Part shown: piece after piece, positions 32,679 through 35,950 of the stretch | Position numbering within the stretch: position 1 is the stretch's first letter | Layout of the letters: each line of letters begins with the position of its first letter | The notes under the pieces: model-generated | Told to the model about the DNA's origin: nothing | Seen by the model: the letters and a program-made list of their open reading frames with translations, nothing else | Databases searched by the model: none | Position numbers and translations under genes: made by a program | NCBI RefSeq assembly: GCF_026626705.1 | Contig: NZ_JAPNKC010000001.1 | Coordinates: 6,528,001-6,592,000, forward strand | Reading direction: 5' to 3' | Origin: Pyxidicoccus sp. MSG2 | Lineage (GTDB): Bacteria > Myxococcota > Myxococcia > Myxococcales > Myxococcaceae | Length of the DNA stretch: 64,000 nt

Positions 32679-33992
32679 ATGCGAACGCCGCCCGGCGTTG
32701 CCCTGCCGCTCGCCGTCCTGCTGTATGCCCTCACCGGGCACGCGGAACCGCCCCCGAAGCAAGCCGCCCCACCTCCAGCCGACCTGCCGCCAGGTGTGTC
32801 GCCCGTGCTGTGGAAGCTGTCGGTGCCCGCGGGCGCCGAGCCCACGCCGGAGAGAGTCTCCCTGGGCCAGAAGCTCTTCAATGACAATCGCCTGTCGGTG
32901 GACGACTCCGTGTCGTGTTCCACCTGCCATGACGAGAAGTTCGGCTTCACGGACGGCAAGCCGGTATCGGAGGGCGTGAAGGCGCAGAAGGTGACGCGCA
33001 ACAGCCCCACCATCCTCAATGCCATGTTCAACGCCTCGCAGTTCTGGGACGGCCGCGCGAGCACGCTGGAGGACCAGGCGAAGCTGCCCATCCTCAACCC
33101 TCGCGAGATGGGCCAGCCCAACCCGGAGGCGGTGGTGGCCAAGGTGAAGGCCATCCCCGAGTACCAGGCCGAGTTCCGCAAGGTCTTCAACCGGGACGTG
33201 AATTACGACGACCTGGCGGCGGCCATCGGCGCCTTCGAGCGCACGCTCTACTCCGGCAACGCGCGCTTCGACCGCTTCATCCTGGGCGACGCGAAGGCGC
33301 TCAACGAGTCCGAGCGCCGCGGCTGGGCGCTCTTCAACGGCAAGGCCCGCTGCAACACCTGCCACGCGGGCAACGTCGTCTCGCCGCTGTTCAGCGACCA
33401 GAAGTTCCACAACATCGGCATCGCCGCGCACAAGCAGGACTTCGTGAAGATGGCGCGCGAGGCGCTGAAGGTGGTTCGCACCGGCGACGAGAAGCAGATT
33501 GACGAATTGGCGCTGCAGACGAACTTCTCCGAGCTGGGCCGCTTCCTGGTGACGAAGCAGGAGAACGACGTGGGCGCCTTCAAGACGCCCACGCTGCGCA
33601 ACATCGGCATCACCGGCCCGTACATGCACGACGGCTCGCTGACGACGCTGTGGGACGTGATGGACCACTACAACAAGGGCGGCGTGCCCAACCCGTACCT
33701 GGACGGGGGGATGCAGCGGCTGGGGCTGACGGAGGGCGAAATCGACGACATGGTGGCCTTCCTCTTCACGCTCACCGACGAGCGCTTCGCCTCGCAGGGC
33801 ACGAAGCGCCTGGCCGAGCAGCGCGCCCGCAAGGGCCAGCGGCCGGAGCGCGACACCGCCGTGGCCACGGGAAAGAAGGGGAACCTGGGCGACCTGGCTC
33901 CCAACCCGGACCTGAACGTGAAGAACCCCGCGGCAATCGGTGTGTACGGCACCGAGGTGTCCGCCAAGCCCGCTTCGACGAAGAAGCCTTGA
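32679..33992 (+). CDS. Di-heme cytochrome c peroxidase (CcpA/MauG family)
   Basis: 437 residues from the ATG at 32679, which has a GGGAGG ribosome site. A signal peptide (residues 1-22, ending GHAE) is followed by two heme-c sites: CSTCH (C80, C83, H84) and CNTCH (C225, C228, H229). The family signatures QFWDGRASTLEDQA and YMHDGSLTTLWDVMDHY are clear. The enzyme should reduce hydrogen peroxide, or oxidise a partner, in the periplasm. The C-terminal tail after residue 385 is low complexity. It leads an operon with a metallophosphoesterase (14-base gap) and a c-type cytochrome (15-base gap), the likely electron donor. Confidence 0.9.
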   Translation: MRTPPGVALPLAVLLYALTGHAEPPPKQAAPPPADLPPGVSPVLWKLSVPAGAEPTPERVSLGQKLFNDNRLSVDDSVSCSTCHDEKFGFTDGKPVSEGVKAQKVTRNSPTILNAMFNASQFWDGRASTLEDQAKLPILNPREMGQPNPEAVVAKVKAIPEYQAEFRKVFNRDVNYDDLAAAIGAFERTLYSGNARFDRFILGDAKALNESERRGWALFNGKARCNTCHAGNVVSPLFSDQKFHNIGIAAHKQDFVKMAREALKVVRTGDEKQIDELALQTNFSELGRFLVTKQENDVGAFKTPTLRNIGITGPYMHDGSLTTLWDVMDHYNKGGVPNPYLDGGMQRLGLTEGEIDDMVAFLFTLTDERFASQGTKRLAEQRARKGQRPERDTAVATGKKGNLGDLAPNPDLNVKNPAAIGVYGTEVSAKPASTKKP

Positions 33993-34006
33993 GGAGGAGG
34001 TCGCTC

Positions 34007-35125
34007 ATGGGCAACAAGTTCCGCAGCATCGAGACGAAGCACCACGAGGAGCGCGACGCCTTCTTCGACGACTTGAAGAAGCTGGACCGCAGGGCCTTCA
34101 TGCGGGTGGCGGGCATCTCCGCCGGCATCGTCGCCGGAATGGGGCTGAGGACGCCGCAGAGCTTCCAGCTCGTCAACGTGGCCGAGGCGCAGGGGACGAA
34201 GCCGCGCTTCTCCTTCGCGTACATCTCCGACACGCACCTGTATGACCAGAAGCTGAATGACCGCTTCGTCCGCTCCATCCTCAAGGCGGTGGACGACGTG
34301 AATGCGCTGGACCCGCAGCCGGACTTCGTCCTCTTCGGCGGTGACCTGGCGCAGCTCGGGCAGGCCGTCGAGCTGAAGCTGGGCGCGCAGATTCTGAAGA
34401 ACCTGAAGGCGCCCGTGAAGATGATGGTGGGCGAGCACGACTGGTTCCTCGACATGGGCGAGCTGTGGCGCGACTTGTTCGGCCCGCCGAACTACTCGTT
34501 CGACCACAAGGGCGTGCACTTCGTGGTGCTCAACTCCATCCTGGAGAAGGACTTCTGGACGGAGCGGAAGCTCACGCCCATGGAGCGGATGAAGATTGTC
34601 GCCGGCCTGGACAATGGCATCCAGTCACGCTTCGAGGTGGGCGGCGAGCAGCGCGCGTGGCTCCAGCAGGACCTGGCGAAGGTGGACAAGAAGACGCCGC
34701 TCATCGTCTTCAGCCACTCGCCGCTCTACAAGTACTACCGGCCCTGGAACTTCTGGACGGACGACGCGGACGACGTGCAGGCCCTCCTCAAGCCTTTCGA
34801 GAAGGTCACCGTCATCCACGGGCACACGCACCAACTGCTGAGCAACCAGATTGGGAACATCAGCTTCCACGGCATGCTGTCCACGGCGTGGCCGTGGCCG
34901 TACGCGCCGGAGGGGTTGCCGAAGCTGACGGTGCAGATGAACCGGCCGGACCCGTTCAGCCAGTTCGACGGGTGCGGCAACGGGCGCATGGACGTGTTGG
35001 AGTCGGGGCTGGTGGACAAGCTGTACAACCTCTGGGAGCGCAACCCCGTCACCGTGCGCGCGAGCTACCTCGCGTCGGGTGGGAAGCAGGATGCGCCGCC
35101 CCGGACCAGGCTGCCGAGCTACTGA
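34007..35125 (+). CDS. Exported metallophosphoesterase
   Basis: 372 residues from the ATG at 34007, behind a GAGGAGGAGG ribosome site. The N-terminus has a Tat-like signal, DRRAFMRVAGISAGIVAGMG (about residues 27-46), so it is probably exported folded. The calcineurin-like phosphoesterase motifs follow: SDTHLYD (Asp, His), FGGDLAQLG (GD), GEHDW (the usual GNHD with Asn replaced by Glu), SHSPLY (His), and GHTHQL. The two-metal site is otherwise complete. The Asn-to-Glu change at a metal-bridging position is notable. It lies between a di-heme peroxidase and a c-type cytochrome, an uncommon setting. The substrate is unknown. Confidence 0.85.
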   Translation: MGNKFRSIETKHHEERDAFFDDLKKLDRRAFMRVAGISAGIVAGMGLRTPQSFQLVNVAEAQGTKPRFSFAYISDTHLYDQKLNDRFVRSILKAVDDVNALDPQPDFVLFGGDLAQLGQAVELKLGAQILKNLKAPVKMMVGEHDWFLDMGELWRDLFGPPNYSFDHKGVHFVVLNSILEKDFWTERKLTPMERMKIVAGLDNGIQSRFEVGGEQRAWLQQDLAKVDKKTPLIVFSHSPLYKYYRPWNFWTDDADDVQALLKPFEKVTVIHGHTHQLLSNQIGNISFHGMLSTAWPWPYAPEGLPKLTVQMNRPDPFSQFDGCGNGRMDVLESGLVDKLYNLWERNPVTVRASYLASGGKQDAPPRTRLPSY

Positions 35126-35140
35126 GCGCGAGGGGACACC

Positions 35141-35950
35141 ATGACCATTCGGATGAAGCTGCTTGTAGGCGCGGGAGCGCTCCTGTCCTTCGCGGGCGGT
35201 GTGGCACTGGCCGGCGAGGACTCCGCCGCCCCCGAGGTGAAGAAGCATGCGGTGCCGACCTCGAAGGACGGCGACCTCGTGGTGGGGCTGTGCGACGGCG
35301 TCACCTCGTTGGAGGTGGACGGCGTGAAGGAGGGGCAGAAGCTGACGCGCGAGCAGGCACAGCGCGTGTCGGGGGCCCTGATGGAGCAGTGGTTGAAGAA
35401 GAACCCGGACGCGAACTGGGACCCGGCGCCAGTCGTTGCGCAGGCGCCCACGCCGCCGAAGACGCCGGGCAGTCCGCCGGCGGTGCCTGCCACGCCGCAG
35501 AAGCCGTCGTCCGGAGGGACGATGGTGGGCGGCGGCGTGAAGCCGGAGAGCGGCGGGAAGGACGTGAAGAAGCAGCAGGGCGCCAACCTCCAGGACGGGC
35601 ACACCTACGGCGCGTTCTCCCAGCGGGACGAGGCCATCTGGGCGGCGTCCACGCAGGCGTTCGTGGAGGAGGGCCACCGCGTGTTCCACGACGCGGAACT
35701 GCTGGGCGGCACGGTGGCCGTGTCGTGTGACATGTGCCACCCGGACGCGTCCAACACGCACCCGGAGACGTATCCGAAGTACCAGGTGCAGCTCGGTCGC
35801 GTGGCGCTGCTGCGCGACATGATCAACTGGTGCATCGAGAACCCGGTGCGCGGCAAGCCGCTCGCGGATGACGACCCGAAGATGCGCGCGATGGAGGCGT
35901 ACATCTACGCGAAGCGGAAGGGGACTCCGCTGGAGTACGGGAAGAAGTAA
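35141..35950 (+). CDS. Exported mono-heme c-type cytochrome
   Basis: 269 residues with a signal peptide (residues 1-24, ending VALAGE). A Pro/Gly-rich linker spans about residues 95-150. The heme site CDMCH is at C196, C199 and H200, followed by NTHPETYPKYQ and LLRDMINWCIENPVRGKPL. That second block resembles SoxA/TsdA-type cytochromes and holds a possible heme ligand (Met or Cys). A first domain (residues about 40-90) has no heme motif. It probably passes electrons to or from the di-heme peroxidase in the same operon, in the periplasm. The specific partner reaction is inferred. Confidence 0.82.
   Translation: MTIRMKLLVGAGALLSFAGGVALAGEDSAAPEVKKHAVPTSKDGDLVVGLCDGVTSLEVDGVKEGQKLTREQAQRVSGALMEQWLKKNPDANWDPAPVVAQAPTPPKTPGSPPAVPATPQKPSSGGTMVGGGVKPESGGKDVKKQQGANLQDGHTYGAFSQRDEAIWAASTQAFVEEGHRVFHDAELLGGTVAVSCDMCHPDASNTHPETYPKYQVQLGRVALLRDMINWCIENPVRGKPLADDDPKMRAMEAYIYAKRKGTPLEYGKK

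Follow-up and report, generated by a model that had tools for sequence, protein, structure and literature searches.

MauG modifies methylamine dehydrogenase, and SoxB of the Sox pathway belongs to the metallophosphoesterase (MPE) superfamily. A closer parallel to the locus described here, a three-gene operon of Pyxidicoccus sp. MSG2, is BthA from Burkholderia. In the published account, BthA is a Tyr-His-ligated di-heme peroxidase, always encoded downstream of a putative phosphatase, which shows a bis-Fe(IV) state and peroxidase turnover with H2O2; expression of bthA and of the phosphatase gene is raised without oxygen, the authors remark that BthA may oxidise its phosphatase neighbour, and its function is called not yet discovered (PMC6405878). 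Two further papers describe the mechanism of TsdA, with an arginine invariant in TsdA and SoxA (PMC4423706), and a TsdA plus SoxB route that replaces the SoxYZ-based one in Erythrobacter flavus (PMC7608252). The operon lies in a stretch of 64,000 nucleotides (contig NZ_JAPNKC010000001.1, positions 6,528,001 to 6,592,000; the window) and encodes a di-heme CCP_MauG enzyme (gene A), an MPE (gene B) and a mono-heme cytochrome (gene C). We tentatively propose that it represents a widely spread periplasmic module, not previously described, in which a phosphoesterase-fold enzyme with an altered metal site is almost always paired with a Cys-ligated mono-heme cytochrome. In the course of evolution, this pair would have been connected on one occasion to an oxygen-reducing cbb3-like oxidase accompanied by sulfur carriers, and on another to a peroxide-spending MauG-type di-heme enzyme.

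32679..33992, + strand: gene A, exported di-heme CCP_MauG enzyme, 437 residues
33993..34006, + strand: A-B intergenic gap, 14 bases, with ribosome-binding-like GGAGGAGG ahead of gene B, read directly
34007..35125, + strand: gene B, exported MPE of the twin-arginine (Tat) type, 372 residues
35126..35140, + strand: B-C intergenic gap, 15 bases, with ribosome-binding-like GAGGGG ahead of gene C, read directly
35141..35950, + strand: gene C, exported mono-heme cytochrome c of the SoxA/TsdA fold, 269 residues

The first-pass annotation had described an operon of three exported genes with gaps of 14 and 15 bases, and all coordinates, CXXCH counts and families were confirmed. On direct reading, both ribosome-binding-like stretches are purine-rich. 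The three proteins score above the Pfam cut-offs (gene A, CCP_MauG, 199.6 bits; gene B, Metallophos, 59.3; gene C, SoxA-TsdA_cyt-c, 41.5). The 13.3 Mb window genome contains 45 Metallophos and 6 CCP_MauG matches. The grouping of the three genes exceeds chance, because this genome has a single SoxA-TsdA match, and 23 of the 26 loci of the same type found in the wide scan described next show the same A-B-C order (one, L096, reads A-C-B).

For the wide scan, one genome per species was searched with an MPE alignment as the query, which gave at least 569 relatives; the loci of the 80 ranked highest were compared. The ranking used a sister-type query, so the proportions of locus types are not population figures, and near-identical rows from Mesorhizobium, Sinorhizobium, Ensifer and Corallococcus are counted in the locus and residue tallies; residue counts set aside gapped rows. 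The 80 loci comprise 26 with the trio arrangement of the window (trio-type, L093-L118) and 54 with a second arrangement (sister-type, L039-L092). A same-strand CCP_MauG homologue precedes the MPE in all 26 trio-type loci, and 24 of these trios are whole; in the other two the contig stops at the MPE or shortly after it. The cytochrome gene adjoins the MPE gene on the same strand in 52/54 sister-type and 24/26 trio-type loci; in the four loci lacking it (L077, L092, L094, L116) the contig ends in the MPE or within about 180 bases of it. The redox partner changes between the two groups. A gene A homologue is present within 2.5 kb in 26/26 trio-type and 0/54 sister-type loci, a blue-copper-like protein precedes the MPE in 53/54 sister-type and 0/26 trio-type loci, and a COX1-family oxidase subunit I is encoded within 8 kb in 47/54 sister-type and 0/26 trio-type loci. 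Within the same 8 kb, a tri-heme CcoO/CcoP-like protein accompanies 47/54 sister-type loci and two trio-type loci (L097, L116). The blue-copper reading is based on a C-x2-H-x2-M motif, present in 53/53 of these proteins; two members were checked for CarboxypepD_reg, one scoring just above and one just below the cut-off. The His-His pair and the active-site Tyr of oxidase subunit I are present in 46/46 sequences above 500 bits. At the level of sequence, these comparisons establish the conservation of the pair, the exchange of partner between two groups and, as detailed below, the residues at ligand positions.

Since the B-C pair is constant while its redox partner changes, we tentatively favour a single oxidation module common to both groups, joined to a different electron sink in each. 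Possibly, the MPE and the cytochrome form one oxidation module, which the trio couples to peroxide via the di-heme enzyme and the sister clusters couple to oxygen via the oxidase. The MPE-fold enzyme would handle or hydrolyse a substrate, and the gene C cytochrome would accept electrons from it. In the trio, the electrons would pass to the MauG-type di-heme enzyme, which would spend H2O2, and the sister-type pair would feed a dedicated cbb3-like oxidase through the blue-copper-like protein. This direction of electron flow is inferred. From their cohesion across several phyla, and from the oxidase and sulfur-carrier genes beside their closest relatives, the three genes probably belong to a single undescribed redox system and are not adjacent by accident; the earlier suggestion of a periplasmic redox system built from them is supported.

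The gene content of the sister clusters hints at a substrate, perhaps a sulfur compound, and they are the only source of this hint. In 17/54 sister-type loci, a SoxYZ-like match is encoded no more than 2.5 kb away (13 on the same strand), with a GC arm in 12 of the 17; some clusters carry a SoxYZ fusion and others flavocytochrome c sulfide dehydrogenase, SoxY and SoxZ. The rhizobial sister clusters examined have genes for SoxY, SoxZ, a flavocytochrome c sulfide dehydrogenase flavoprotein, a c-type cytochrome, SCO1 and a P-type ATPase nearby, and the C-terminal end of one rhizobial SoxY reads NGCR. Among genomes sampled for SoxY and SoxB, many of them bins and possibly incomplete, SoxY was found in 12/12 of sister type. 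One such cluster, on Sinorhizobium meliloti pSymA (L140, CP130049.1 1114840-1139835), comprises a divergent cbb3-like oxidase cluster, SCO1, GroEL, a blue-copper-like protein, the MPE and a SoxA-fold cytochrome annotated as hypothetical, and adjoins SoxYZ and a sulfide-dehydrogenase-like pair. Genes clustering with an extracytoplasmic function (ECF) sigma factor and a zinc-finger anti-sigma factor lie near trio-type loci L093, L095, L102, L105 and L115; the same gene clusters, of which one member per cluster was annotated, lie near sister-type loci L039, L041-L045 and L085. Their presence near both locus types hints at common regulation of the trio and sister clusters.

Conservation of the trio beyond close relatives had been set beforehand as a test of the first-pass annotation, and whole trios were found in seven phyla (Myxococcota, Acidobacteriota, Planctomycetota, Methylomirabilota, Nitrospinota, Binatota and Kryptoniota) and on a Methylocystis (Pseudomonadota) plasmid. 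Half of the trio-type loci (13/26) lie outside Myxococcaceae and Archangiaceae, including one bin labelled Deltaproteobacteria and two unplaced bins. L100 (BNCN01000005.1) looks like a mislabelled record: it bears the title Comamonas sp. KCTC 72670, yet its MPE falls among those of Myxococcus. The Methylocystis plasmid trio, with A, B and C at 66.0, 71.5 and 51.3% identity and gene C annotated as hypothetical, is flanked by transposase genes on each side. Across plasmid records, 58 match B, 41 match C and 146 match A. The C matches belong to Sinorhizobium (35), Rhizobium (4), Phyllobacterium (1) and Methylocystis (1), 20 of these 41 rows being listed, and the surplus of B matches consists of 15 records with identities of about 35% or lower and two from Methylocystis bryophila. 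On M. bryophila plasmid NZ_AP027150.1 (L141, L145), a di-heme gene lies about 56 kb from a lone MPE.

Closer to the window, we surveyed 27 genomes of the genus, the window genome included. The MPE was found at E < 1e-200 in 18 of these and not in the other 9, and among named organisms, Pyxidicoccus fallax and Myxococcus species have the MPEs nearest to that of the window. In 20/20 loci (L009-L028), the MPE is adjoined by homologues of A and C; of the other ten genus-search loci, L029-L031 have the sister arrangement, L032 has A and B where the contig ends, and in L033-L038 the MPE is distant and neither A nor C was matched beside it. One genus genome holds two trio copies (G017:C1 7936-9051 and 9484781-9485875), near either end of a single contig. 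At phylum level, 59 of 195 genomes gave an MPE match at E up to 1e-30. Twenty stretches from 19 of those 59 comprise 16 trios, three sister clusters (G048, G058, G059) and one distant MPE without the neighbours; G112 contains a 39% MPE match without A or C neighbours.

We built a tree of 64 MPE rows, thinned of near-identical sequences, with four outgroup rows. Trio types and sister types form separate groups, with support of 93/89 and 98/95, respectively. The distances of the three trio proteins correlate (r 0.81–0.89; 0 of 2000 permutations) over the 15 of 25 loci kept after thinning.

Comparison of gene A to characterised di-heme enzymes bears on how the trio would use peroxide. Its CXXCH sites are C80-H84 and C225-H229 and its only cysteines are those of these motifs. 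By alignment rather than spectroscopy, the Met ligand of the Met-His bacterial cytochrome c peroxidases was not found in gene A, and a Tyr stands there: Y331 aligns with the Tyr294 ligand position on the six-coordinate heme of MauG and is Tyr in 27/27 homologues. The pocket residues W123, Q133, P137 and E143 correspond, at a constant offset of 30, to W93, Q103, P107 and E113 of MauG; W123 is kept in 26/27 homologues and the other three in 27/27. Against solved structures, the whole sequence of gene A scores best with cytochrome c peroxidases, with MauG and BthA lower. Its C-terminal 101 residues give as top matches MauG and 6e1c (PDB name 'Di-heme enzyme'; presumably MbnH), with the Tyr aligned. 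Nevertheless, gene A differs from both in falling below the NCBIfam models of MauG (TIGR03791, 238.8 against a cut-off of 443.85 bits) and MbnH (TIGR04039, 237.5 against 362.85 bits). W93 of MauG is named in the BthA paper (PMC6405878). The likeness to BthA and its phosphatase PhosA consists of the Tyr ligand position on the six-coordinate heme of a CCP_MauG enzyme and an adjoining gene for an exported phosphoesterase. However, BthA has Ser for the inter-heme Trp that gene A retains as W123, and a C-terminal cysteine pair that gene A lacks; its structure (6nx0) is distant from gene A (1.8e-14 versus 3.3e-50 for the best peroxidase), and the trio adds a third gene, the cytochrome. PhosA is called a purple-acid phosphatase and gene B is of the GpdQ/Rv0805 kind, a separation made by description and not by sequence.

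The main rival explanation is maturation, in which the MauG-type enzyme would use H2O2 to modify a partner, most likely the cytochrome (at C51 and W167) or the MPE. The Tyr at the MauG position and the retained pocket residues favour it, as does the BthA parallel, with its Tyr ligation, bis-Fe(IV) state, phosphatase neighbour and the authors' remark on oxidation. The cytochromes would offer candidate sites: C51-D52, at the N-terminus of gene C, is present in 21/21 trio-type rows, with a comparable CD motif in 0/52 sister-type cytochromes, and W167 is present in 25/25 trio-type cytochromes and is Phe or Tyr in the sister types. The Trp residues of the MPE are not favoured as MauG-type targets. 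W146, W184, W247 and W250 are invariant in 80/80 relatives and W295 and W297 in 79/79, with or without a di-heme partner; they are equally kept in sister-type loci that have no di-heme gene, and modification does not explain them. In addition, BthA itself is reported to turn over H2O2 as a peroxidase (PMC6405878), and a Tyr ligand is compatible with an electron-sink role. We consider maturation somewhat unlikely, and tentatively read the di-heme enzyme as an electron sink.

In gene C, the single CXXCH motif occupies residues 196–200, and C231 lies, by alignment, at the Cys-ligand position of the catalytic heme of SoxA and TsdA in 77/77 homologues, which suggests a Cys-ligated heme. The predicted structure has a mean predicted local distance difference test score (pLDDT) of 55. 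The fold family, the CXXCH motif and the heme-Cys position are shared with SoxA and TsdA, whereas gene C has one heme, lacks their invariant arginine and falls below the SoxA model (NCBIfam TIGR04484, 37.7 against a cut-off of 110 bits).

Gene B begins with a twin-arginine-like DRRAFMRVA, in which R28 and R29 are kept in 78/78 homologues with letters there (80 aligned). The metal-ligand positions are D75, H77, D113, E143, H144, H237, H273 and H275, of which E143, H144, H237, H273 and H275 are conserved in 80/80 relatives, D113 in 79/79 and D75 and H77 in 78/78 of those with letters. Thus, the usual metal-binding Asn of the GNHD motif is replaced by Glu143, and is Glu in 80/80. Seven other MPE loci were inspected in the window genome; the three with a single pattern match (L003, L007, L008) read GNHD and the remainder were ambiguous or unmatched. 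A related MPE group in the genus search (L033-L036) also has GEHD for GNHD, and the L034 MPE is flanked, judged by eye, by a sigma-factor-like gene on one side and a small copper-protein-like gene on the other. The AlphaFold2 model of gene B (pLDDT 81.7) is closest in fold to the class III phosphodiesterases GpdQ and Rv0805 (Z 23.9–26.6 over 214–242 residues), the best match being 2zo9 (Z 26.6, root-mean-square deviation 2.3, 233 residues). It differs from these enzymes in the Glu for the metal-binding Asn, in its Tat-type export and in scoring below the family cut-offs. We expect the MPE to be an active hydrolase. No SoxB model was present among the NCBIfam matches of gene B (E up to 0.1), and no SoxB structure appears in the printed Foldseek and VIA rows for the model, which excludes nothing.

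Several observations weigh against the shared-module proposal or its extension to sulfur. The arginine invariant in TsdA and SoxA (Arg119 of TsdA) aligns with M227 of gene C in 77/77 homologues, and two nearby basic positions of SoxA/TsdA are Q215 (77/77) and Q217 (64/77). Of the two heme domains of SoxA, the second is the catalytic one, in keeping with PMC4423706, where residues 177–282 are given as the catalytic domain; gene C scores 14.8 bits on this domain and 21.9 bits on the first. SoxY was found in 0/16 trio-type genomes sampled, and therefore the sulfur link of the sisters does not carry over. The missing arginine (PMC4423706) counts against plain SoxA/TsdA thiosulfate chemistry for gene C, and a sulfur substrate is weakened by this absence together with that of SoxY. 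The MPE as a simple replacement of SoxB is rejected, SoxB being above cut-off in 6/12 sister-type genomes (0/16 trio-type, with weaker matches elsewhere, including the window genome). The partner swap is also less clean in places: trio locus L097 has a copper-like and a CcoO/CcoP-like protein, about 3.7 kb off on the opposite strand, L116 gives a 23-bit match to the CcoO/CcoP-like protein, and a Methylocystis bryophila plasmid MPE (52% identity to gene B) adjoins neither a cytochrome nor a di-heme gene. Support for the trio group in the tree falls slightly short of the starred level, a long branch leads to the outgroup, the correlated distances can come from shared species history, and MauG-type enzymes can modify proteins instead.

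A second rival, Sox-like thiol chemistry, has the cytochrome attaching a sulfur compound to C51, one of its own cysteines, in place of SoxYZ, and the MPE hydrolysing the conjugate as SoxB does. The SoxA/TsdA fold and heme-Cys position of gene C, C51 in the trio types, the internal GC arm of SoxYZ-like proteins at 12 sister-type loci and the TsdA plus SoxB route of PMC7608252 are consistent with this, and the Sox pathway likewise combines a cytochrome with a hydrolase of the MPE superfamily. Against it stand the missing arginine and nearby basic residues, the GpdQ/Rv0805-like fold without a SoxB model match, and the lack of SoxY in the 16 trio genomes. The window genome has no SoxY or SoxZ match and no SoxB above cut-off; the SoxY model was positive in the 12 sister-type genomes, and the SoxZ search had no positive control genome. 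We regard Sox-like chemistry as improbable. Peroxide defence with a scavenging phosphatase, as the first-pass annotation had suggested, would place two stress functions in one operon and draws on the peroxidase superfamily, the phosphoesterase fold and the best whole-sequence scores of gene A, but is highly improbable given the Tyr at the MauG position, the replacement of Asn by Glu among the metal ligands of the MPE, the pairing with a cytochrome across phyla and its partner swap, the cbb3-like oxidase and, at some loci, the SoxYZ or sulfide-dehydrogenase genes in the sister neighbourhoods, and the lack of phosphate-uptake genes noticed in a small sample of annotated neighbourhoods. Peroxide use itself by the trio is possible.

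Neither the gene trio nor an MPE accompanied by SoxYZ and an oxidase was found described in the open PMC literature, outside which most subscription papers lie; PMC6620896 names a metallophosphoesterase in a legend on arsenic resistance genes. The earlier statement that no described pathway links the three genes needs correcting, since the BthA work had already placed a Tyr-ligated di-heme peroxidase beside a putative phosphatase (PMC6405878). If the shared-module proposal is true, it would provide a physiological partner for some of the Tyr-ligated di-heme enzymes, whose roles as a class are open. The module would occur on rhizobial symbiosis plasmids, in myxobacteria and in relatives of sulfur oxidisers, with genes annotated merely as 'metallophosphoesterase' and 'hypothetical protein' in the records examined, and the sister cluster on Sinorhizobium meliloti pSymA means that a genetically tractable host exists.

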